NCBI RefSeq assembly: GCF_964204645.1
Contig: NC_134032.1
Location: 14,378,275-14,442,274 of the forward strand
Reading direction: 5' to 3'
DNA from: Tubulanus polymorphus
Lineage: Eukaryota > Nemertea > Palaeonemertea > Tubulaniformes > Tubulanidae
DNA length: 64,000 nt
The position numbers and the translations under genes were made by a program. Below are positions 2,058 to 21,600 of this stretch, piece by piece. The stretch's first letter is position 1, and each line of letters starts with the position of its first letter. Below the pieces are notes generated by a model. The model had not been told where the DNA came from. It worked only from the letters and a program-made list of their open reading frames with translations, and made no database searches.

Positions 2058-5000
2058 ATGTCATCAGCTGCAACCGCTTCGAAATCGGCATCTTTTACAT
2101 CTTCATCGTGTGAAGAGGATGAAGAGATGACGATGATAGCGGGTGAAGATGCCAGTCAGTTGGCGTTCACTGCGATTAGTATGATGCTCAATAATAACAT
2201 GAATGAAGCAGAAAAACTGTTCGAAAAATACAAGTAAGTTTAGAAATGGATTAGCCATATTTTTGATGTCACAATTAGATAGTGCGTTTGAGAGTAGTTA
2301 GTTACCTAATCGTTGGTGGTAAGCTTTTTATTTAGTTAGTTACCTAATCGTTGGTGGTGGTAAGCTTTTTATAATCGGATGGGCTTATACCAACGTGGTT
2401 TGTGAAAATATCCGATCGTGAAACTAAACCACAGACAGGTTACTGACTAGTTTGAGAGGGGCCCGAAATGGAGGTATCGTCGGGCGGTTGGGCCGGGGCG
2501 GGGTCCATCGATCAGCGGGCTGCTTTCTTGAGAAATAAATTTGGGTAAAAGTGCAGATCCGCACCTCTCGTGATTGAAGCAATCTGCTACTACAATCTTT
2601 CTACTCTCTCTAGTGAAGATAGCTTAAAATTAGCCAATGGCAATGTACTGAATTGCTGATGAAATTTTGAATCTGAAACAATGATATTTAATGTAATTGA
2701 TTGAACCGTTTACGCGGAGAAGTGCGGATCTGCACTTTTACCTAAATTTGAACTTCAACTCGAACCTCCTCCTCGAACCTCCTCTACTAGCCAGGGCTAT
2801 TATGGGTCCAGAGAGCATAACCCTTTCAATGCTGACAAACTAATACCCAAAAGTTCTGGAGTTACTGAATTTTAGGCATTACCCCAGCATGGTGTATCAT
2901 TAGTAACTAATGATTTTAACCGTGTTTGGTTGGTGCTGCCATCTTTCATTAGAGATGAAAACAAATTGTTTGTTTCGCTTTCAGAGATAAAAGTCCTCTG
3001 ATGAGCGCTGGTAGCAGTTTCGTCGCTTTCATGGTAAGAAATGGCGCCATCTCTCCTCCTACTCTTTATTTCCCTTCCTCTCTACTTCCCTTGTACCATC
3101 ATAGTTCTAATTGTGGGCTGCGTTGCCGCTTATGAGGACCAAGAAAGTAGAGAACACGTCTTTACTCATCATTCAGCATCACCTAACTTCATTTTCTCAT
3201 GAACTACACTTAATGGGAGTCAAAACATGATAATTACACAGATCCATCGTCTTGACAGCTACAATTAAGAAAAATACTTCTGGGCCCAGTTTCACGAAAA
3301 AGTTTAAGCCTAAAACGGTTAAGTTTGAATTGCTGTCCTCATTGAAAACATGAAGTTACCAATGGCATTTTTATTCTGGGCCCAGCTGTTGCCGACACGA
3401 ATGCATATTTTCAGAAAAAAATTCATTTTGATTTTTCTAGCAAGCGGTGATGTCGTTCGAGGACGAGAAACTCGCCGAGGCGATGCTGCGCTTACAAGAG
3501 ACTGAAAACCGTTGCAGCAGCAAGGGAGGATGGTTTAAATCATTTAAAACTAAATTCAAACGCAAAGAGGTTTGTATTAAACTAGTGACACCTGGTGGAT
3601 CCTCACTCGCCACATATGGAATCCTATATTGCCGCAGTAGTTGATATCCTACTGCACACTAGTGACACCTGGTGGATCCTCACTTGACACAAGTGGAATC
3701 CTCTATTGCCGCAGTAGCTGATGTCCTACTGCACACTAGCAACACTGTTGGATCCTCTCTTGCCACTAGTGGGATGCTCTTTTGCCACAGTAGTTGATGT
3801 CCTACTGCACACTAGCGACACCTGGTGGATCCTCACTCGCCACAAGTGGAATCCTCTGTTGTTGCAGTTGATGTCCTACTTCATACTAGGGACACCAGGT
3901 GAATCCTCACTTGCCAGTGGACTCCTCTATTGACGCAGTATTTATAATCCTATGCACAAGCGACACCTGGTGGATGCTCACTTGCCACATAAGCATCGGT
4001 GTATCCACATATTGTAAAATCCCTGGACCCAGTTCCACAGTCATGAGTTAGAGTTAACTCTGAGTTAAAGTTGGTTCATTTTCAATGAGGCTCAGAGATA
4101 AATCTTAACTCAGAACTGTGGAACTGGGTCCTTAGTTCTAGATAACTCTTGGGTTAGAGTTAGTTCATTTTCAATGAGTTAACTCCGAGTCAAATCTTAA
4201 CTCACAACTGTGGAACTGGACCCTGATTTTTAATTTCAGAATTGTGATGAGAATTTAGAACAGAGACTTCAATGTCAGATAATTGTAGCCGACAGTCAGT
4301 TGTATCAGGCGGTTCTAACGTTTATCAATCAGGATGTCGCTAGTTATATTAAAGGCGGTTGGATTCTACGCAAGGCGTGGAAAATCTACGATAAAACGTA
4401 CCACGAAATCAAACAGCTTTACGACAACATCGTCCATGACAACCAGTCGACTAATGGTCGACGTAAGTCGTCGACCGGTTTGAAACCGGTCGACGCGACC
4501 GTTAACTCGAACCGCGGTTCGCAATCTTTGAACGATATTAAGAATTTCGATGGTAATTCCGTCTGTTCGGACTACGGCGCGGACGCGATGACCGGCAGAC
4601 GAGATTCGGACTACGGCAGACGCGATTCGAACGTGAGTTTAAATTCGCAATCGTCGACCGATTCTCAACCGAGGCGATTACCGAGGATAAACTCGTTGCC
4701 GCACGGCGACGACCTGCCGGTGATTGTTGATGAACTCGGTAACGCTCTGACGGAAGATACGGTCGCTAGGTTGATGGGAGCGGTTAGTTTCGGTTACGGT
4801 ACGTTTCAGCTGTGTTTGTCGCTGATTCCGCCGAAGATTCTACGCATTATTGAATTTCTCGGGTTCGAAGGCGATCGAGATATCGGACTGCGAGCGATGG
4901 AATTCTCCAGTCACAGCAAGGATATGAAAGCTCCTTTATCCACGTAAGAGATTTATTATAGATTTATTTTCTCACCTTTTACAGGGTCCCTACGACTTCT

Positions 5001-8000
5001 TGATTCTTTAAAAACTCCTAAACAAGAAACATTTTGAAGGTCCTTTGAAACTCCTTTAAAAACTCCTTCAGTTTATAAGAAATTGAGAATTTGAATTACC
5101 TGTAGTTGTACATTAAGCTATGCCTAAATCGATTAGAAACTAAGTTTAGTAAAGACTGAGATAAACAGTACCGATTTAGGAGAAGTCTACAGCTATTGCG
5201 GTATGAAAGTTCACGCTTTAAAGAAATTTTGAATTTTCTCCTTGAAAACTCCTTATATCCAAGGATGACCGATCTGTTTTAGTGTTATAGAGGTTTTTGA
5301 AAAAAAATCTCTATCAATATTTTCTTTATTTTTCTATCGATAGTTTGGGATTGTTATGGTATCATACAGTGATACGACCATTTTTCTCAATAGATGGCGA
5401 CGCTGTAGATGCGGGTAAGATTCGAACCGCGACATCGATGATATTCGGGGTTTGAACCCTCTCTCATCTCTCGCTCTATTTTATAGGTGTTTCTGCTGCC
5501 GACGCTATTATCAAACGATGTGAAAGGGAATACCCAGACAGCGCCCTCTTTCTTTTCTTTAAAGGACGATCGCAGAGACTACAGGTAAAAATATTGTTAG
5601 ATTCGAATCCTGGATAATTAGGGAGGTCAGAGGATGGGACTACTACGAACGGGGCACAGGGACTCATTTTTTTGTGAAAAGTGCCAAGAAGAGAGATACC
5701 AGTTATTCTGATCCATGGCGCCACTAACCAGGAAGACCTGGAAAACTCAGGGAAAACTGCGGGAATTCTGAAAAAAATAACTAGGAAACTCTTTATCAAT
5801 ACGTGATTCTATGAAAAATGAATGAAATGTATCGAGAAATTTCTCTGATTCACTCGGGGAATGTTGTGCAATCACATCGAAAAATCTGCCAGGGAAGTAG
5901 TAAATTGGCTGAAAGTGGCGACACTGTGTGTTTAACCCTTTCACTGCTGACTAATTAATACCCTATAGTGCTGAAGATAATTTGAAAATTCTGAAAAGTT
6001 CCACCCTAGTGTGTTGAATAACGGGAATACCACTACAGTGCGTCTACACCGCGGTGCAGTCTACCGTTAGTTACTGATATTTCACTATGTTTGACAGGTG
6101 CTGCCATCTTTCAATAGAGATAATTGCTAATTACACCAATACACCGTGGTGCGGTGTACTAGTAAAATCCATCACTGATTTTTACCCCGAAATGCGGTGT
6201 AGACGCTCTGAATGGGTTAAAGAAGTTGTTTCGTAATATTTTTGTTCTCAGACTCACATCGAGGAATCATTAGTAATGTACGAATGCGCCGCGGTGCGGT
6301 GTACTAGCAAAATCCATCACTGATTTTTACCCCGAAATGCGGTGTAGACGCACTGAAAGGGTTAAAGAAGTTGTTTTGTAATATTTTCATTCTCAGACTC
6401 ACATCGAGGAATCATTAGTAACGTACGAATGCGCCGCGGTGCGGTGTACTAGCAAAATCCATCACTGATTTTTACCCCGAAATGCGGTGTAGAGGCACTG
6501 AAAGGGTTAAAGAAGTTGTTTTGTAATATTTTCATTCTCAGACTCACATCGAGGAATCATTAGTAACGTACGAATGCGCTCTGGAAGCGTCGCACGAACA
6601 ACGAGAGATTCAACTGATTTGTTTATACGAGATCGGCTGGAGTAACATGATTAAACTTAACTGGAAATCATCGGCGGAATGTTTCCTCAGATTGAAGGAA
6701 GAGTCTCGCTGGTCGAAGGCTTACTACGCTTATCTTACTGCACGTTAGTGTTCATAGATTGATCACTTCTAGTTTATGATTGATACAGCCTGCAATCACC
6801 CCTCGCCAGCCTGGAACCTGCTGCACCCATTTAGACAATCTGCATCCTGTAACCTGCAGCCCTTCAGACAATCTACAGCCTGTAACCTGCACCCCTTCAG
6901 ATAATCTGCAGCCTGTAACCTGCAGCCCTTCAGATAATCTGCAGCCTGTAACCAGCAGCCCTTCAGATAATCTGCAGCCTGTAACCTGCAGCCCTTCAGA
7001 TAATCTGCAGCCTGTAACCAGCAGCCCTTCAGATAATCTGCAGCCTGTAACCAGCAGCCCTTCAGATAATCTGCAGCCTGTATCCTGCAGCCCTTCAGAT
7101 AATCTGAAGCCTGTAACCTGCAGCCCTTCAGACAATCTGCAGCCTGTAACCAGCAGCCCTTCAGATAATCTGCAGCCTGTAATCTGCACCCCTTCAGATT
7201 ATCTGCAGCCTGTAACCAGCAGCCCTTCAGGTAATCTGCAGCCTGTAACCTGCAGCCCTTCAGATTGTCTGCAGCCCGTAACCTGCACCCCTTCAGTCAA
7301 TCTATAGGGGGTGATGTTACTACTGCATCTAACATGTATATTGTACTGTGTTATAGTGTGTTTCGGAGCGAATGGAGACCTGAATGAATCGTACAATTTA
7401 ATGAAACAAGTTCCCGGTTTAGTGAAACGCAAAAACAATCAAATTGAAGCTTTCGTCGCGCGTCGGGTGAGTAGAACCTTGACCTTTCAAACAGTTTAAC
7501 GAGTCTCAGTTGAAGTAAGACCGATAAATGGTCTCTCATTGTTACTAGGGTGATTGTCACCTGAATTGACTTCTAGGGATACAATGGTCTATGAAACCAG
7601 GCCCAGGTTACGGATTTACCCCTAAGGGTAACTTAAATACCCGGTCTATAAAACCAGGCCCAGGTTACGGATTTACCCCTAAGGGTAACTTAAATACGTG
7701 GTACCCGGTCTATAAAACCAAACCCAGGTTTAGGATTTATCCCTAGGGGTAACTTTGACACTAAGTTTATGGAACCGGGCCTAGATTGAGCATTACCCCC
7801 CCCCCGGTAGTTAAATCTTCTAAATCACTGCGTGTTTTCTTCTTTAAAAGGCGGAAAAGTTTCGAAAAGTTGAACCGACTCAGGATCAGTTGGTGATACA
7901 CGTGTTGGAAGTTTTATATTTGTGGAACACACTACCGTCGTGTAAAACAGAACACATCACAGCCATGCAGAAAGGTATCATCCTCCCCCGGCAGGGATTC

Positions 8001-11000
8001 GAACCTGATGGCATCGAGATTGCCACGGCACGAAACCCTGCCATAATCGACTGTGTGCGCAGATACATGCGCAGTTCAGATGATGTGATTTTTAGCCAAT
8101 CAGAAATCCCGTTTTATTTTATCCCGGGTTTTCCCATTTATAGTTCTTCCTTGAAATTTGCCTCAACGATTATACAACGAGCAATCTGATTGGTGCCGCC
8201 AGTTTTCGTTCGGAAAGCTGCGCATGTACCTGCGCACCCGGTCTACTGATGCAGGGGTTCGTGCCGTGGCTGAGTGTTGCGATGCCATCAGGTTCGAGTC
8301 CCTGCAGAGGGAGGATGAAAGGTATATTCAATTGTAAACTGGGATCTTTGTTAAAACCGTTGGAGACAAATACTTATGTCATTTTAATGGGATACCGGCA
8401 ACACCAGATGGCGCAGCAACAAAACACCCGGGTTATTCGTAGTGAAAATCAGTTCAATTTTTCGATGAAATTTGAACTTGATTTTGCTTTTAGAAGTACA
8501 GTGGACTTAAGTCATAGGTCAATGTCGGGTGGAATTTTTCACGTGTGATTTTCCAAAAGGGTACTTGGTCAGAAAAGGGGGGAGGGGTTCCGCAACTGGA
8601 TCCGCAACTGGGTGGGTATATTGGTTGCCGGTAACACCAGATGGCACAACAAAACACTGGGTTATTCGTAGTGAAAATCAGTTAAATGAAATTTGAACTT
8701 GATTTTTATGCGTCCAAATCCAAAAATTAGCAGTTAAGCCAAATTTAAGGACACGTTTATTTTCATGTATCTCGTATTTCAAAGATTTCATTCCGTTTTG
8801 CAGAATGTGAATCGTTGAACGATCGAAGTTTGTTTCATCTGCGTAGTCTAATCGAAGGCGCCCTCTGGCGTGAAGCGGGTGAAGTAGATTTAGCGATCCA
8901 GTGTTTCGAGGAAGCTATTGCTCGTCACAGTGGATGCAAAGATGATCAACACGTTCCGGCTTATGCTTCATTCGAACTCGGTACCATATATGCTAAACAT
9001 CCTGAGGTGAGTTCATGTTCTAGCCACTTGGGGGCGTTGGATGAGTTTTATGTTTAGGGACGTGGGGTTAGTGTGTGTACTAGCCACTGATAATCACCTT
9101 AATTTCCAGTAAGGCCTCTTACACGCATTGTAAAAGACTAATTCCTAAACACACATTCCATGCACACGCGCAACCGAGCTCGGTATCCCTTCCCTGTACC
9201 ATCAATTTTTTCTAACCCCAAAAAGTCCAAGTCCACATATCTAACAGCCATTTGGGGGCGTCGGATGAGTTTTATGTTTATACGTTAAGGGACGTGGGGT
9301 TAGTGTGTGTACTAGCCACTTGGGGGCGTCGGATGAGTTTTAAGTTTATACGTTAAGGGACGTGGGATTAGTGTGTGTACTAGCCACTTGGGGGCGTTGG
9401 ATGAGTTTTATGTTTATAGGGTAAAGGGACGTGGGGTTAGTGTGTGTACTAGCCACTTGGGGGCGTCGGATGAGTTTTAAGTTTATACGTTAAGGGACGT
9501 GGGATTAGTGTTTGTACTAGCCACTAGGGGGTGTTAGGTTAGTTTTGATATTCTATCAACGTGGGGACATTGACTCCATATGGTTTTATGTGCTCGGTGA
9601 CCTGCTGACCTGCTTACATTGTGCGGGTAACACTTGAAACGCTGCGGTCCTATCGTGTGGTTAAATGAACAATCAAATAAAGATCTGAACAACTTAAAGC
9701 AAGATAAACTAGAAGACTTTCTACCGGCTAGTTGTATGTTTCATTTCATTTTTTAGACGAGAACGAAAGGTAAAGAATTGTTGAACAAGGCTAAGGTAAG
9801 AATGATTAGATACCTCTTTAACTCTCTCTCTCTCGCTCTCAACTCAAATTAACATGTTTCCACTCTTAATAACTGTAACCCACACGTGCTATTAGCATTA
9901 GAGCCGGCTGTGGCAGGTGAGTCTAACTGACGAATGCTTTTTCTCCGCTACAGGATCTTTACGAAGGTTACGATTTCGAAAATCGTCTGCACGCGCGGAT
10001 AATGTCACGGCAACGGCTTTACTTCAAACACCCGACTGCAGCTAACAATACCAATAACAAATGTACGTTAATAATTAAACTATCTGTCGTCTATAACTCG
10101 ATCCAGTTTTGTAGATTTGTGACGTGCAGGGGCAACATATTTACAGTTAAATATTCAAAAAATTTGTCAGAAATAACCATAGTGTCTCTTACCAGGTAGT
10201 TCTGGACTTAGTTCCAGACTTTTGGACTCAGTTCCACAGTTCAGGATCCAGTCCCACAGTTTTGGACTCAGTTCCATAGTGCTGGACTCAGTTCCACAGT
10301 TCTGGACTCAGTTCCACACTTCTGAATCCAGTTCCACAGTTCAGGATCCAGTCCCACAGTTCTGGACTCAGTTCCATAGTGCTGGACTCAGTTCCACAGT
10401 TCTGGACTCAGTTCCACACTTCTGAATCCAGTTCCACAGTTCAGGATCCAGTCCCACAGTTCTAGACTCAGTTCCATAGTGCTGGACTCAGTTCCACAGT
10501 TCTGGACTCAGTTCCACACTTCTGAATCCAGTTCCACAGTTCAGGATCCAGTCCCACAGTTCTAGACTCAGTTCCATAGTGCTGGACTCAGTTCCACAGT
10601 TCTGGACTCAGTTCCACACTTCTGAATCCAGTCCCATGGTTCTGGACTCAGTTACACAGTTCTGGACTCAGTTCCGCAGTTCTGGACTCAGTTCCACTGG
10701 ACTCTTTGAGCGGCAACTATGAAACCAGATCCTGCAGGGTAGGGTCTACACTGCTGGTAACTTTGATCTGCTGTCTATACAACTGCCCCAGTTACCCCAG
10801 TGTTTATATCTTTTCTATAGAACCAGATCCCGCAGTTTTCTGTCTCATGATTTTTTCCTTTTTCCTTATAGACTAGAAAATGATACTGATGTTTTTTGTA
10901 TGGAATCATTCATTTATTAGATACACTTGAATTTTTCAACTCCCTCCCCTGTACACAAAATCAGCCATTGTTTCATATACATTACTTGCACTTAACCCTC

Positions 11001-14189: not shown

Positions 14190-14337
14190 TTAAATCCTAA
14201 CAACTATGGCAGTGACTCTGGAATCTTGAGAAGTCATATAATGATACAGTGGAGTCATAAATTGTGACTAAGTGACCAACCATTTAATACGTACGCACAA
14301 TAGGGGGGAGGGGAGGCCTGAAAATGCTTATATTATA

Positions 14338-14760
14338 AGCGTACGTGGCTCTGTGGCGTAGAGGGGATGGAGGGAGGGAGGGGGTGGGTACATGGCTCTG
14401 TGGCGTAGAGGGGATGGAGGGAGGGAGGGGGTGGGTACGTGGCTCTGTGGCGTAGAGGGGATGGAGGGAGGGAGGGGGTGGGTACGTGGCTCTGTGGCGT
14501 AGAGGGGATGGAGGGAGGGAGGGGGTGGGTATGTGGCTCTATGGCGTACAGGGGATGGAGGGAGGGGGGAGGTACGTGGCTCTGTGGCGTACAGGGGATG
14601 GATGGAGGAAGGGGGTGGGTACGTGGCTCTGTGGCGTACAGGGGATGGAGGGAGGGGGGAGGTACGTGGCTCTGTGGCGTACAGGGGATGGAGGGAGGGA
14701 GGGGGTGGGTACGTGGCTCTGAGGCGTACAGGGGATTGAGGGGGATTGAGGGAAGGGTAA
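14338..14760 (+). repeat. 47-bp G-rich minisatellite (copy A)
   Basis: Nine units of GTACGTGGCTCTGTGGCGTA + GAGGGGATGGAGGGAGGGAG + GGGGTGG. Each unit has at least four G-tracts of three or more, so each could form a G-quadruplex on the plus strand. Both strands show spurious long frames (Gly/Trp-rich or Pro/His-rich). The same arrays recur at 16254-16676 and 18170-18592. Confidence 0.9.
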
Positions 14761-14862
14761 CACACCTAATAATCATTTTGCACTCTATTATTGACCATTC
14801 ATTTTATTGAGTTTTGCGTACAGACTAAATGGAGGTCCCTAAAGAGTCTCGAGGAACCAGGT

Positions 14863-16101
14863 CTAATATTGATAGTTGTGTTGTTTACTGAGCGGTGGAG
14901 TAGGTGACCGAACGACCATCATCTGCTGCTGCTGCTGCTGTTGATTTTGCTCGTCGAGATTCCGTCTCAAACGTCCCGTTAAATTCAACAGATCGATTGT
15001 CGCCGAGTGACTCTCCACGATTTCCATCGTCAACAAATCATCGACGGTCGTCGTCGTGGTTACCGTTTCCATGCCGATATCGGTGTCGTTGTAAGCGATG
15101 TTGTTGTACCCGTCGTTTGGTTGTTTTCCGACGTCTAAACGATAGTTGCTATTGACGAGATATTGACTGTGTTGTTCGCGGCAGTGTTTGCGCACGAGAC
15201 CCTCGGTGTCGAACGAGACGAGACGCCCGGTGAGCTGGTAACACACGCAGCACGAGAACAGCTGCGTCGCGTGGTGCGTCGAGATGTGTCGAACCATCGC
15301 CGTCTGCGAGTTACACGAGAACGGCATCTCCAGATTCTCGTTAATACACAACGTGCATAGCAACGGTTCCTCCTGGTTGCTAACCGCGTACAATCTAATT
15401 TCGGCGGGCGTCGTATCGGGGACGTGTATCTCCGTGGCGACATCCTCGACGGCGGCCACCTCCGACGGCGTAGTGGCCGTCTCGGGATGAACGGCGACCG
15501 CCGGCGTCGTGATCACGTGAGCGGCTGCCGATTCGATGATTCGTTTGCGATTCTTACTGCGATCGCGACACGAACGTATACGCGTGCGTAATTGTTGCTT
15601 CGTCATGGCGATACCGGTGTAATTGTTACGTTTCATCAGATGCGCGTATTTCTTATAAATCTGTTTCGACGAAGCGGCCTGCGACACGACCAGCCGGTCG
15701 AGGTCGTCTTTAAACGACTGCGACAGACGTTTAGTCGGCTGCACCGCCTCCTCCTGGTGGTAGTTCGCGTTATTAACGCCCTCGTACATCTTCCATTTTT
15801 TCATGTCGCTGAAATCGATAATGAGAAACATCGACCAGGCACATTCGAAATGCTCGTGGTAGAAATTCACTTTCATTTTTTTCGTTTTCTCCATATACGC
15901 CGGACGTTGGCGCTTGTATTTACAGTAGTAGTTATGACACGAATTGCAGACTTTGTGCCCGAATAATTTATACCAGTGTCGCGTGTTCGTCGCGCGGCAG
16001 TTCGTACACGCTACGTCACCGCGTTGAAGATCGAGCCCGCAGCCCGAACAGTTCTGCACGTCTAAACTACGATCGATATCTTTGATCAGATTGAGACATT
16101 T
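14863..16101 (-). pseudogene. 5'-truncated zinc-finger gene copy A
   Basis: The last 411 codons of the 986-residue protein (from Cys576 on) are preserved without change, including the GATA-like finger, two C2H2-like fingers, the poly-Gln tract and the downstream AATAAA. Exons 1 and 2 and the first 383 codons of exon 3 are missing. Upstream of the break the frame reads only a few repeat-derived codons before a stop, with no ATG. The first in-frame Met is after the GATA-like finger. It is probably not translated unless transcribed through from the intact copy. Its perfect frame means a very young duplication or an assembly artefact. Confidence 0.8.
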
Positions 16102-16253
16102 AAAATTAAATCCTAACAACTATGGCAGTGACTCTGGAATCTTGAGAAGTCATATAATGATACAGTGGAGTCATAAATTGTGACTAAGTGACCAACCATT
16201 TAATACGTACGCACAATAGGGGGGAGGGGAGGCCTGAAAATGCTTATATTATA

Positions 16254-16676
16254 AGCGTACGTGGCTCTGTGGCGTAGAGGGGATGGAGGGAGGGAGGGGG
16301 TGGGTACATGGCTCTGTGGCGTAGAGGGGATGGAGGGAGGGAGGGGGTGGGTACGTGGCTCTGTGGCGTAGAGGGGATGGAGGGAGGGAGGGGGTGGGTA
16401 CGTGGCTCTGTGGCGTAGAGGGGATGGAGGGAGGGAGGGGGTGGGTATGTGGCTCTATGGCGTACAGGGGATGGAGGGAGGGGGGAGGTACGTGGCTCTG
16501 TGGCGTACAGGGGATGGATGGAGGAAGGGGGTGGGTACGTGGCTCTGTGGCGTACAGGGGATGGAGGGAGGGGGGAGGTACGTGGCTCTGTGGCGTACAG
16601 GGGATGGAGGGAGGGAGGGGGTGGGTACGTGGCTCTGAGGCGTACAGGGGATTGAGGGGGATTGAGGGAAGGGTAA
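16254..16676 (+). repeat. 47-bp G-rich minisatellite (copy B)
   Basis: Same nine-unit array as at 14338-14760, including the variant units, carried within the second 1,916-bp repeat. Confidence 0.9.
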
Positions 16677-16778
16677 CACACCTAATAATCATTTTGCACT
16701 CTATTATTGACCATTCATTTTATTGAGTTTTGCGTACAGACTAAATGGAGGTCCCTAAAGAGTCTCGAGGAACCAGGT

Positions 16779-18017
16779 CTAATATTGATAGTTGTGTTGT
16801 TTACTGAGCGGTGGAGTAGGTGACCGAACGACCATCATCTGCTGCTGCTGCTGCTGTTGATTTTGCTCGTCGAGATTCCGTCTCAAACGTCCCGTTAAAT
16901 TCAACAGATCGATTGTCGCCGAGTGACTCTCCACGATTTCCATCGTCAACAAATCATCGACGGTCGTCGTCGTGGTTACCGTTTCCATGCCGATATCGGT
17001 GTCGTTGTAAGCGATGTTGTTGTACCCGTCGTTTGGTTGTTTTCCGACGTCTAAACGATAGTTGCTATTGACGAGATATTGACTGTGTTGTTCGCGGCAG
17101 TGTTTGCGCACGAGACCCTCGGTGTCGAACGAGACGAGACGCCCGGTGAGCTGGTAACACACGCAGCACGAGAACAGCTGCGTCGCGTGGTGCGTCGAGA
17201 TGTGTCGAACCATCGCCGTCTGCGAGTTACACGAGAACGGCATCTCCAGATTCTCGTTAATACACAACGTGCATAGCAACGGTTCCTCCTGGTTGCTAAC
17301 CGCGTACAATCTAATTTCGGCGGGCGTCGTATCGGGGACGTGTATCTCCGTGGCGACATCCTCGACGGCGGCCACCTCCGACGGCGTAGTGGCCGTCTCG
17401 GGATGAACGGCGACCGCCGGCGTCGTGATCACGTGAGCGGCTGCCGATTCGATGATTCGTTTGCGATTCTTACTGCGATCGCGACACGAACGTATACGCG
17501 TGCGTAATTGTTGCTTCGTCATGGCGATACCGGTGTAATTGTTACGTTTCATCAGATGCGCGTATTTCTTATAAATCTGTTTCGACGAAGCGGCCTGCGA
17601 CACGACCAGCCGGTCGAGGTCGTCTTTAAACGACTGCGACAGACGTTTAGTCGGCTGCACCGCCTCCTCCTGGTGGTAGTTCGCGTTATTAACGCCCTCG
17701 TACATCTTCCATTTTTTCATGTCGCTGAAATCGATAATGAGAAACATCGACCAGGCACATTCGAAATGCTCGTGGTAGAAATTCACTTTCATTTTTTTCG
17801 TTTTCTCCATATACGCCGGACGTTGGCGCTTGTATTTACAGTAGTAGTTATGACACGAATTGCAGACTTTGTGCCCGAATAATTTATACCAGTGTCGCGT
17901 GTTCGTCGCGCGGCAGTTCGTACACGCTACGTCACCGCGTTGAAGATCGAGCCCGCAGCCCGAACAGTTCTGCACGTCTAAACTACGATCGATATCTTTG
18001 ATCAGATTGAGACATTT
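16779..18017 (-). pseudogene. 5'-truncated zinc-finger gene copy B
   Basis: Identical in translation to copy A and to the C-terminal 411 residues of the intact gene, with the same breakpoint after Cys576. It lies between copy A and the intact copy and has no promoter-proximal exons of its own. A read-through transcript of the intact gene could in principle splice into or include it, but no acceptor is evident at its 5' edge. Confidence 0.8.
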
Positions 18018-18169
18018 AAAATTAAATCCTAACAACTATGGCAGTGACTCTGGAATCTTGAGAAGTCATATAATGATACAGTGGAGTCATAAATTGTGAC
18101 TAAGTGACCAACCATTTAATACGTACGCACAATAGGGGGGAGGGGAGGCCTGAAAATGCTTATATTATA

Positions 18170-18592
18170 AGCGTACGTGGCTCTGTGGCGTAGAGGGGAT
18201 GGAGGGAGGGAGGGGGTGGGTACATGGCTCTGTGGCGTAGAGGGGATGGAGGGAGGGAGGGGGTGGGTACGTGGCTCTGTGGCGTAGAGGGGATGGAGGG
18301 AGGGAGGGGGTGGGTACGTGGCTCTGTGGCGTAGAGGGGATGGAGGGAGGGAGGGGGTGGGTATGTGGCTCTATGGCGTACAGGGGATGGAGGGAGGGGG
18401 GAGGTACGTGGCTCTGTGGCGTACAGGGGATGGATGGAGGAAGGGGGTGGGTACGTGGCTCTGTGGCGTACAGGGGATGGAGGGAGGGGGGAGGTACGTG
18501 GCTCTGTGGCGTACAGGGGATGGAGGGAGGGAGGGGGTGGGTACGTGGCTCTGAGGCGTACAGGGGATTGAGGGGGATTGAGGGAAGGGTAA
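18170..18592 (+). repeat. 47-bp G-rich minisatellite (copy C)
   Basis: Same nine-unit array, lying about 100 bp beyond the stop codon of the intact zinc-finger gene and so just past its likely poly(A) site. Confidence 0.9.
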
Positions 18593-18634
18593 CACACCTA
18601 ATAATCATTTTGCACTCTATTATTGACCATTCAT

Positions 18635-18640
18635 TTTATT
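18635..18640 (-). terminator. Poly(A) signal AATAAA of the zinc-finger gene
   Basis: AATAAA on the minus strand about 55 bases after the stop codon, just before the G-rich array. The same signal is present in the two truncated copies, 1,916 and 3,832 bases further on. Confidence 0.6.
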
Positions 18641-18694
18641 GAGTTTTGCGTACAGACTAAATGGAGGTCCCTAAAGAGTCTCGAGGAACCAGGT

Positions 18695-21600
18695 CTAATA
18701 TTGATAGTTGTGTTGTTTACTGAGCGGTGGAGTAGGTGACCGAACGACCATCATCTGCTGCTGCTGCTGCTGTTGATTTTGCTCGTCGAGATTCCGTCTC
18801 AAACGTCCCGTTAAATTCAACAGATCGATTGTCGCCGAGTGACTCTCCACGATTTCCATCGTCAACAAATCATCGACGGTCGTCGTCGTGGTTACCGTTT
18901 CCATGCCGATATCGGTGTCGTTGTAAGCGATGTTGTTGTACCCGTCGTTTGGTTGTTTTCCGACGTCTAAACGATAGTTGCTATTGACGAGATATTGACT
19001 GTGTTGTTCGCGGCAGTGTTTGCGCACGAGACCCTCGGTGTCGAACGAGACGAGACGCCCGGTGAGCTGGTAACACACGCAGCACGAGAACAGCTGCGTC
19101 GCGTGGTGCGTCGAGATGTGTCGAACCATCGCCGTCTGCGAGTTACACGAGAACGGCATCTCCAGATTCTCGTTAATACACAACGTGCATAGCAACGGTT
19201 CCTCCTGGTTGCTAACCGCGTACAATCTAATTTCGGCGGGCGTCGTATCGGGGACGTGTATCTCCGTGGCGACATCCTCGACGGCGGCCACCTCCGACGG
19301 CGTAGTGGCCGTCTCGGGATGAACGGCGACCGCCGGCGTCGTGATCACGTGAGCGGCTGCCGATTCGATGATTCGTTTGCGATTCTTACTGCGATCGCGA
19401 CACGAACGTATACGCGTGCGTAATTGTTGCTTCGTCATGGCGATACCGGTGTAATTGTTACGTTTCATCAGATGCGCGTATTTCTTATAAATCTGTTTCG
19501 ACGAAGCGGCCTGCGACACGACCAGCCGGTCGAGGTCGTCTTTAAACGACTGCGACAGACGTTTAGTCGGCTGCACCGCCTCCTCCTGGTGGTAGTTCGC
19601 GTTATTAACGCCCTCGTACATCTTCCATTTTTTCATGTCGCTGAAATCGATAATGAGAAACATCGACCAGGCACATTCGAAATGCTCGTGGTAGAAATTC
19701 ACTTTCATTTTTTTCGTTTTCTCCATATACGCCGGACGTTGGCGCTTGTATTTACAGTAGTAGTTATGACACGAATTGCAGACTTTGTGCCCGAATAATT
19801 TATACCAGTGTCGCGTGTTCGTCGCGCGGCAGTTCGTACACGCTACGTCACCGCGTTGAAGATCGAGCCCGCAGCCCGAACAGTTCTGCACGTCTAAACT
19901 ACGATCGATATCTTTGATCAGATTGAGACATTTCGCGCGACATTGATCGGACTTTCCGGCGCAGGTTATCTGTAACGTGACGGCGCGTCCTTTACGCGTT
20001 GTAGTGTCACCCGCGTCGTCCTGTAACGCGTAGACGTCGTCGAATCGATGGCTGCGACCCCAGTTTTTATTGTAATACGTCGATATTCCGGCCTGCAGAT
20101 TATCGGGGCTGATCGCGACGATGCCTTTTTCGAAATTATAACGCTTTTTAAAATCGAAACGAAACCCGTCGAAATACCACTTAGTCGGAGCGCCGACCTC
20201 CAGTTCGCCGATGTAGCGCCATCTTTTATTAAATCTATCGATTTTCGACTCGGTCTCAGTCGTCGTCGCCGACTTGGACTTTGTTTTCGCGACGTTATCT
20301 TTCGTCGCTGGTATTTTGTAACAATCGCGGAGCCACTGAACGGCTTCGTCCGAAGCGATGAATTGATTAATATCGTCCATGGCGACCGGATCGTCTGAAC
20401 CGTTCGCCGACGCAAACTTCTTATGAACGACTCGTTTATTGTGCAACATGAATTCGACGCTTAAATGATCCGATTTCGCGCGAACCGCCGGTTTCCGTAG
20501 CAACAACGAATCAACGGTCATGCACTTGTCGACGTCGATATCCAGTCCGGGAAGGTCGTTTTTAGCTTTAACCGCCTGCAGGCAGTCGTCGCTGCCGAGA
20601 TACGCGTTGATTTTCGCCATGGCGTTTTTGTCGTCGCGACCTGCTCGACTACACGGAAACCACCGAACCAACGTCTCGTAATTATTCTTCATATGCAGCG
20701 TCAGTCCGAGCGTACTCCGACGCGACGTCGTCCTCATCCGTACCAACGGCAGTCGTCGTAGCAACGCGCGTAACTCCGGCGGTACGATCAATTCCGACTG
20801 ATAACTCTTCAACACGCCGCTAGATGGCGCCGGTTTATTGACGACCGTAGCGGACGGACTGGGCGCTTTACGACACTCGACCGTCAGGACTTTTTCTCCG
20901 TTTTTTAGCGGTACGACCTCGATGCACAAGTGATCGGTGCCGGGTTCTATTTCGATGCGTTGTTCTCCGATTACGAGGTGGTCGTTGTCGAACGAGATCC
21001 CGCCCGACGATTTCAACAACTCCTGCAACTCTTCCGGATCGCTGTGCGTTTTTACCGTCATCGTTTTATCATCGATCACCTGTCATAATTAGAATAACAT
21101 CAGCGTTCAATAATCAAACCACGGAACAATATATACTATACACTAATGTACAAGAATGTACTGGATTGGTAACAGAAGCTGGGTAATGATTGAGTGACAG
21201 CGCTTTGAGCATTCATTGGAAAGGCGCTATATAAGCACTAATTATCATTATTATTACACTACGTTTATGAGGGTCAACCCACGATATACCGTCCACATCT
21301 CGGTGCAGAATTATTTTGGCGGTATAGAGAGTATGGTGGTATATCGGGGGTGTTTTACTATGTATTTGAATAGAGATGTACATTGAGAAAACTTGGCTGT
21401 AGGCGGGGGTGGCGGTAAATGGGAGGGCGGTATATCGAGGGTGTTTTACTATGTATTTGAATAGAGATGTACATTGAGAAAACTTGGCTGTAGGCGGGGG
21501 TGGCGGTAAATGGGAGGGCGGTATATCGAGGGTGTTTTACTATGTATTTGAATAGAGATGTACATTGAGAAAACCTGGCGGTAGGCGGGGGTGGTGGTAT

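Follow-up and report, generated by a model that had tools for sequence, protein, structure and literature searches.

The window, a 64,000-nucleotide stretch of the Tubulanus polymorphus genome, contains a gene of the TTC39 family, as indicated by matches of several of its exons to the Pfam profile PF10300 (E 5.2e-34 at C8:14382511-14383260, and two more matches above the cut-off). From this profile and a resemblance to the human protein, we presume the gene to be TTC39C and call it TTC39C-like. Twelve exons, lying between 2058 and 10001, join into an open frame of 1,953 nt that contains no stop, the actual end of the final exon being left unplaced. The 3' end of exon 9 reads ...CATGCAGAAAG/GT (here and below, the slash marks the exon border), and its join to exon 10 encodes MQK/ECESLND. 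When the single frame at 7848-8189 was scanned by profile, the sole result was a weak PF10300 match, which came from exon 9.

The border between exon 9 and intron 9 is occupied by a 339-bp inverted-repeat element with the same 8-mer, AAAGGTAT, on each side, as a preliminary description of this DNA had proposed (Table 1). The arms are 92% complementary over 39 nt and 83% over the next 53 nt; the 27-nt left end matches the window at two places, namely the two arms, whereas no match is expected in shuffled window sequence. That the 8-mer coincides with the exon border, AAAG/GTAT on both sides, was borne out as well when the reading frame was checked. Other copies have the same termini, CATCC...GGATG, but differ in the bases beyond them, which places the flanks outside the repeat, and the suspicion that the flanks might belong to it in all genomic copies proved unfounded in the 98 other copies that we read. 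These comprised the 39 best-scored copies and 59 more, chosen by the left end among 100 listed left-end places up to C3:24331338; about six of the 98 have no recognisable right end within 340 bp. The flanks of the window element, accordingly, are a target-site duplication, and the element, being short, bounded by terminal inverted repeats, present in many copies with a duplication that varies between them, and, at 339 bp, too short for an internal transposase gene, has the properties of a MITE. A tRNA origin of the ends was considered, a B-box-like word being present in both arms, but was rejected, as neither Rfam (7900-8400, E up to 10) nor ARAGORN (across the window) reported a tRNA. A search for the empty site used the joined flanks as the query, and scores were given to 40 of its 472 candidates, so that a weaker match may have escaped; among the 40, the window locus alone matched in full, its two halves at 100%, and the remaining matches (81-90%) were to intron 9 repeats.

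Table 1. Features of the exon 9/intron 9 border of the TTC39C-like gene (window positions)
Feature	Position	Strand	Remarks
Exon 9, TTC39C-like gene	7851..7974	+	AEKFRKVEP...ITAMQK, ends AAAG; PF10300 weak on exon 9, strong on other exons
Left (near) target-site duplication copy AAAGGTAT	7971..7978	+	near donor AAG/GTATCA, GT at 7975
MITE copy, 339 bp	7979..8317	+	terminal inverted repeats ~96 nt; 3 substitutions vs family consensus
Best acceptor-like AG in element	8142..8143	+	13/18 pyrimidines; predicted from sequence
In-frame TGA	8187..8189	+	met when exon 9 runs on through the element toward the far donor
Right (far) target-site duplication copy AAAGGTAT	8318..8325	+	ancestral donor AAG/GTATAT, GT at 8322
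Exon 10, TTC39C-like gene	8804..9006	+	ECESLND...KHPE; donor GAG/GTGAGT, GT at 9007

The family to which the element belongs is young, as the window copy departs from the consensus at 3 of 339 positions, and its copies number between several hundred and about a thousand: 1,079 left-end matches were found in the genome at no more than 2 mismatches, and 794 exact 18-nt ends in four spellings. The age estimate comes from 82 near-full-length copies with good ends, a sample that favours young copies and includes two with repeated flanks. Of the 96 unique copies, 63 carry an exact duplication (9 bp in 48, 8 bp in 14 and 10 bp in 1); a further 13 have one mismatch and 20 have no duplication. Duplications of 8-11 bp, for the most part of 9 bp, characterise the Mutator superfamily, and the family, in which 9 bp predominates within this range, is probably of the Mutator type, an assignment drawn solely from duplication length. 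Members of the hAT superfamily, in contrast, carry an 8-bp duplication in nearly all copies and have CA...TG ends; the 8-bp duplication of the window copy and the CA...TG ends of the family are reminiscent of hAT MITEs, but the prevalence of 9-bp duplications (48 of the 63 exact ones) does not fit this affiliation. The 8-9-bp duplications of the Merlin/IS1595 superfamily are compatible with the observed lengths. Ends of the MITE were sought beside 22 transposase-domain loci, mostly within ~1.5 kb on either side, and were found neither near the MULE domain matches (14 loci cut out of 56, about 1.5 kb each side) nor near the IS1595 domain matches (8 loci cut out of 43). In six 8-kb stretches beside copies lacking a near right end, a distant one was sought; L103, itself a further short copy, and L099, where the match is partial, were all that turned up. 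The family has long terminal inverted repeats, duplications that are mostly 9 bp long and a weak symmetric target consensus around the duplication in common with Mutator-like (MULE) MITEs and with maize Mu, for which a preference for genes is also described (PMC2774946); the additional 8-bp duplications, and ends that read CATCCTCC, set the family apart from them.

The family shows a target preference outside the duplication itself. A C lies three bases outside on 72 of 126 sides (38/63 left and 34/63 right; background 18.7%, p ~1e-21) and CA on 25 of 126 (background 6.7%, p ~8e-7), the window copy being counted throughout. For the full word CAG the count is 4 of the 126 sides against a background of 1.3% (p 0.08), which is not significant, and two of these four sides belong to the window copy and to a copy in a PPIL1-like gene. 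The window target, CAG followed by AAAGGTAT, agrees with the C/CA preference, although the overlap of this preference with splice donors may give no help, CAG not being significantly enriched. AGGT as a target was rejected, since 7 cases at 794 ends compare with 7.2 expected; among 62 duplications, AGGT occurs in two, one of which is the window copy.

Taken together, these observations suggest, with a probability that we put at about 0.7, a tolerated insertion, in which a probable Mutator-type MITE doubled the donor of the TTC39C-like gene, rather than the creation of a regulated protein switch. Insertion of the non-autonomous element would have involved a staggered cut of 8 bp spanning the border between exon 9 and intron 9, and gap repair would have copied AAAGGTAT, keeping the AAAG/GTAT donor near the exon and the ancestral donor on the far side; a donor stands on both sides, in this scenario, because gap repair duplicated the 8-mer. 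Splicing from the near donor would then take the element out with the remainder of intron 9 and give the normal mRNA, whereas some transcripts made via the far donor, or via an acceptor within the element together with the far donor, would gain a stop and be degraded. The insertion would thus be tolerated, with a near-neutral or mildly lowering effect, and the gene probably still works despite an insertion at the very edge of an exon.

The two donors lie 347 nt apart and have identical letters from -4 to +4, the element having changed the intron bases +5,+6 at the near donor from AT to CA. Their U1 pairing energies are equal (-5.7 each), but a donor matrix scores the near donor at 0.6 bits and the far one at 2.5, so that the far donor may outcompete the near one and the insertion may do harm. 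If the far donor did dominate, most transcripts would contain the stop, and this young copy would mark a partial loss-of-function allele, perhaps rare or heterozygous. We consider such an outcome unlikely, although it accords with the matrix scores, with the youth of the copy and with the lack, at both donors, of the G at +5 that all but one of the gene's 10 other introns possess. Those ten introns range from -0.2 to 7.2 bits, and 4 of the 10 pair less well with U1; in particular, the donor of intron 7, CAC/GTTAGT, is weaker still than the near donor (-0.2 bits, U1 -1.3). Furthermore, the near donor preserves the original 124-nt length of exon 9, as against 471 nt via the far donor.

Reading through exon 9 into the element adds 71 residues after MQK before the stop, at the place where the preliminary description had located it. 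From this, a switch had been proposed whereby regulated use of both donors yields either the full-length protein or a truncated one ending in the 71 element-coded residues. The presence of both donors with equal U1 pairing and the frame that stays open to the stop are what such a switch requires; the copy, however, is young, and in the far-donor mRNA the stop lies 132 nt upstream of the exon 10 junction. A stop that far ahead of an exon junction is a standard signal for exon-junction-dependent decay, and for this reason destruction of most far-donor mRNA, wherever such decay operates, appears likelier than a truncated protein. With the near donor only slightly below the far one, the proposed switch finds no support, and we regard it as improbable. 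The best acceptor-like AG in the element would, with the far donor, bound a 178-nt cassette (8144-8321) in which a stop follows three new codons.

The duplication also provides a GT on the left and an AG/GT on the right, and it is conceivable, if only barely, that the element is removed as an intron together with one duplication (GTAT...AAAG), the far AG/GT being reused as a donor in the manner of introners or recursive splicing. Introners that owe their two splice sites to the place of insertion have been published, and introners have inverted repeats in many families and a duplication with splice-site letters (PMC9860276), features that the window MITE shares. Here, however, the AG at 8321 is preceded by 4 pyrimidines of 18, compared with 11 to 15 of 18 at the 11 acceptors of the TTC39C-like gene, and the family lacks the AGGT preference that would suit this route. 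Unlike an introner, moreover, the window MITE lengthens an existing intron, and no intron was gained.

Two other copies of the family lie at donors, in a PPIL1-like and an ABCC-like gene, and in both the duplication begins at intron base +1. The PPIL1-like gene (Pfam Pro_isomerase, 1.3e-51 over three joined exons) reads ACACAG/GTATAAACA after ...DLKHTG, its next exon is identified by a 19-residue peptide, and its element of 346 bp differs from the consensus by 5 substitutions and 7 gap positions. The ABCC-like gene (ABC_membrane, 1.2e-7 and 3.3e-16 for two exons) reads AACAG/GTGAAATAC after ...YPNIVSN(R), continues with WLGICLESVGN in the next exon, and harbours a 339-bp element in the reversed orientation with 3 substitutions. 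The search for copies with similar targets, which the preliminary description had suggested, thus added two donor copies while failing to reveal a preference for AGGT.

Strict searches for AGGTR with two of the four end spellings gave 3 + 3 places, three of which (L129, L131 and L132) adjoin no recognisable exon. A looser search gave 21. Besides the strict six, these are five places within L142, where a different unit is tandemly repeated, and ten in nine loci, where reading by eye, which can miss exons, showed none that stops at the element. L140, which is among these ten, carries a complete end in a different spelling and brings the total to 7 at 794 ends; its duplication starts 18 nt inside an apparent intron. 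GTAAG and GTGAG occur at 9 and 2 places, respectively, and all 11 were read in the same fallible way. Among the loci inspected, L145 lies behind what is probably a coding exon, but the copy there is decayed and a duplication was sought and not found, and L143 (= L080) has a donor-like ATG/GTAAGA after an open frame. Four peptides from L143, L145 and L140 received no name from Pfam, and the three loci were left out of the donor count. The three real donors compare with 0.8-1.7 expected for an assumed 80,000-160,000 AG/GTR donors (P for three or more, 0.05-0.23) and, excluding the window copy, the P for two or more is 0.20-0.49; the three cases do not clearly exceed chance.

It seems doubtful that the family doubles donors recurrently and so seeds paired near and far donors in many genes. 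Under this reading, the symmetric target C-N2-(8-9 bp)-N2-G, with CA favoured, would overlap the exon side of donors, and the ATG end would lend a G at -1 to duplications that start with GT. For the tolerated insertion that we prefer, the donor matches would need only that insertions be many, with perhaps slight help from the C/CA preference, and that those copying the donor be tolerated.

Mutant alleles with transposable elements at splice sites are similar in that the edge of an exon is hit and splicing may go wrong; in the present case, by contrast, a donor survives on both sides of the element. Among the titles and opening lines of abstracts, a weak test, we found no description of a transposable element insertion that leaves a donor on each side. 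The locus offers a clean natural experiment in the choice of 5' splice sites, with one intron and two donors. Counting the PPIL1-like and ABCC-like genes, a single young family accounts for three such cases in this genome, and both orientations of the element are represented. A duplicated target site, it would appear, can shield genes against insertions at exon edges. If recurrent doubling turned out to be true, the family would supply standing variation in tandem donors, along with decay-coupled isoforms that selection could tune.

The gene in question was identified by Pfam PF10300, which is above cut-off on three of its stretches, and its refinement to TTC39C is presumptive on our part; one other TTC39-type locus was seen in the genome, on contig C2. 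The joined exons amount to 1,953 nt without a stop, with the terminus of the last exon unplaced. Exon 9 ends in ...ATGCAGAAAG at 7974, followed by GT, and the element directly abuts AAAGGTAT on both its left and its right, so that there is a near donor in the left copy (GT at 7975) and a far, ancestral donor in the right copy (GT at 8322). The arms of the element pair with 92% complementarity over 39 nt and with 83% over the next 53 nt.

Features of the window in and around the TTC39C-like gene
Feature	Position	Description
TTC39C-like gene	2058 to 10001	+ strand; 12 exons
145-bp tandem array	6144-6579	3.0 copies, 96% matches
33-bp tandem repeat	6807-7303	in intron 7; 15 copies; one frame open (DNLQPVTCSPS...)
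339-bp element	7979 to 8317	inverted-repeat arms
B-box-like words	7995-8005, 8291-8301	one in each element arm
Tandem triplication	14328-21082	minus-strand frames recurring at an exact 1,916-bp step; ends at 14863, 16779, 18695; lengths 418, 418, 795 aa

The 145-bp array repeats the exon 7 acceptor (TTCTCAG/ACTCACATCGAGG) along with the first codons of that exon; the acceptors end at 6251, 6396 and 6541, stops are reached from the upstream two, and a single gene therefore carries a tripled acceptor as well as a doubled donor. The words in the element arms match the tRNA B box (GGTTCGANTCC); no tRNA was detected, either by Rfam (E up to 10) in 7900-8400 or by ARAGORN across the window.

The element belongs to a large family. 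In the genome (267.8 Mb), its left end has 1,079 matches with at most two mismatches, and an 18-nt pattern covering four spellings of the two ends has 794 exact matches. We read 98 further copies (the 39 best-scoring, and 59 in order of position on contigs C1 to C3), which, with three copies with repeated flanks left out and the window counted in, gave 96 unique copies. Exact duplications flank 63 of these (9 bp in 48, 8 bp in 14, 10 bp in 1), 13 have duplications that differ at a single base, and 20 show no duplication. The sequence beyond the ends differs from copy to copy, and the boundary drawn in the preliminary description is therefore correct; the flanks are a target-site duplication, not part of the repeat. 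The description's anatomy held in every detail tested, and its account of the origin, namely, that a MITE insertion duplicated the donor, is right; the working left donor that it describes is putative. When the genome was searched with the two flanks joined, the window locus gave the only full match among the 40 of 472 candidates that were scored. At some loci (L046/L047, C1:4922782-4923429, and L101), the ends of family members are rearranged or in tandem, with paired left ends 69 bp apart or multiple tandem ends, and an array at C1:30445000-30445900 (L142) consists of units of ~60 bp, one of them altered, that each place GGAGGATG beside AAATACCT and look like a MITE end adjoining one fixed sequence.

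The mix of 9-bp and 8-bp duplications favours a Mutator-type over a hAT affiliation, and maize Mu makes 9-bp duplications (PMC2774946); no transposase gene bearing the element's ends was found in the portion examined, so that we only infer the Mutator-type filing. Among 82 near-full-length copies, which were selected on good ends and hence biased to young copies, the distance to the consensus has a median of 0.9% and a maximum of 15%, with a median of 1.5% in the 42 that were picked by genome position. The window copy has 3 substitutions over its 339 positions, and its insertion is recent despite the bias of the sample.

The family has a target preference. C lies three bases outside the exact duplication in 38/63 copies on the left and, reading the opposite strand, in 34/63 on the right, compared with a flank background of 18.7% (both sides, p about 1e-21), and CA is found at the same position on 25/126 sides versus 6.7% (p about 8e-7); the complete CAG is not significantly enriched outside the duplication (4/126 sides versus 1.3%, p 0.08). 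The window target, CAG/AAAGGTAT, agrees with this preference. AGGT, considered as a preferred target, was rejected: AGGT or ACCT occurs in 2/62 duplications, one of them that of the window, and AGGTR was seen 7 times just before the 794 ends, with 7.2 expected.

Three of these seven AGGTR sites, including the window, are real splice donors. At C3:10193510, the insertion follows an exon ending in ...GGASIYGKTFKDEIHPDLKHTG, with the continuation exon read further on; Pro_isomerase matches the joined exons (Pfam, 1.3e-51), and we assume the gene to be PPIL1-like. At C4:25371496, where the element is reversed, the preceding exon ends in ...DENQMAWYPNIVSN(R) and the next one starts with WLGICLESVGN; two exons match Pfam ABC_membrane, and the gene is presumably ABCC-like. 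The first base of the duplication, GTATAAACA and GTGAAATAC, respectively, is intron position +1 in both. At the other sites read, no exon edge was established by eye, and four peptides checked in Pfam had no match. With an assumed 80,000-160,000 AG/GTR donors, 0.8-1.7 donor hits are expected at the 794 ends, and the chance of at least three is 0.05-0.23 (of at least two, excluding the window as the starting case, 0.20-0.49); therefore, recurrence of insertion at donors is shown, and an excess above chance is not demonstrated at these ends under the assumed donor numbers. For the whole family, 2.8-7.1 donor-covering duplications are expected, assuming 100,000-250,000 donors with all donor types and both strands counted. 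Two further copies bear on exon edges: the 9-bp duplication of L131 (C5:6603340) starts CAG/GTGAAAAAT, no coding exon being seen upstream, and may mark a non-coding exon edge or be due to chance, and the copy at C2:30365735-30366077 (L143/L080) lies at a donor-like ATG/GTAAGA after an open frame of ~36 codons, possibly an exon edge, the frame having no Pfam match.

The ancestral donor survives complete as the near donor of the PPIL1-like and ABCC-like genes, where it outscores the far one on the donor matrix used for all bit scores here (1.2 versus -1.2 bits and 3.3 versus 1.0 bits, respectively). In the TTC39C-like gene, the cut lies inside the donor; the near AAG/GTATCA scores 0.6 and the far AAG/GTATAT 2.5 bits, while the two do not differ in U1 pairing energy (-5.7 each). 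The donors of the other ten introns range from -0.2 to 7.2 bits, nine having G at +5 and four showing weaker U1 pairing. Judged by sequence, the two intron 9 donors are both weak and could compete. Splicing from the near donor would restore the normal mRNA. Modelled use of the far donor adds 347 nt and 71 new residues up to a stop at 8187-8189, 132 nt upstream of the exon junction, and a candidate acceptor within the element (8143; 13/18 pyrimidines) together with the far donor gives a modelled 178-nt cassette in which only three new codons precede a stop. Both modelled products seem prone to decay, a point against the switch between full-length and truncated protein that had been proposed; that proposal is probably wrong. 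It is also conceivable that the element and one duplication are removed together as an intron, regenerating the ancestral donor, given that the duplication provides a GT on the left and an AG/GT on the right. Introners whose two splice sites both come from the place of insertion have been published (PMC9860276). Such removal is unlikely here, however, because the sequence before the AG at 8321 is rich in purines: it has 4/18 pyrimidines, whereas the 11 acceptors of the gene itself have 11-15.

The exact situation was not described in the open-access literature surveyed, mostly titles and the beginnings of abstracts, which is weak evidence of novelty. The doubled donor of the TTC39C-like gene is a neat further instance of a type of event already known, to which the PPIL1-like and ABCC-like cases from its family add somewhat.
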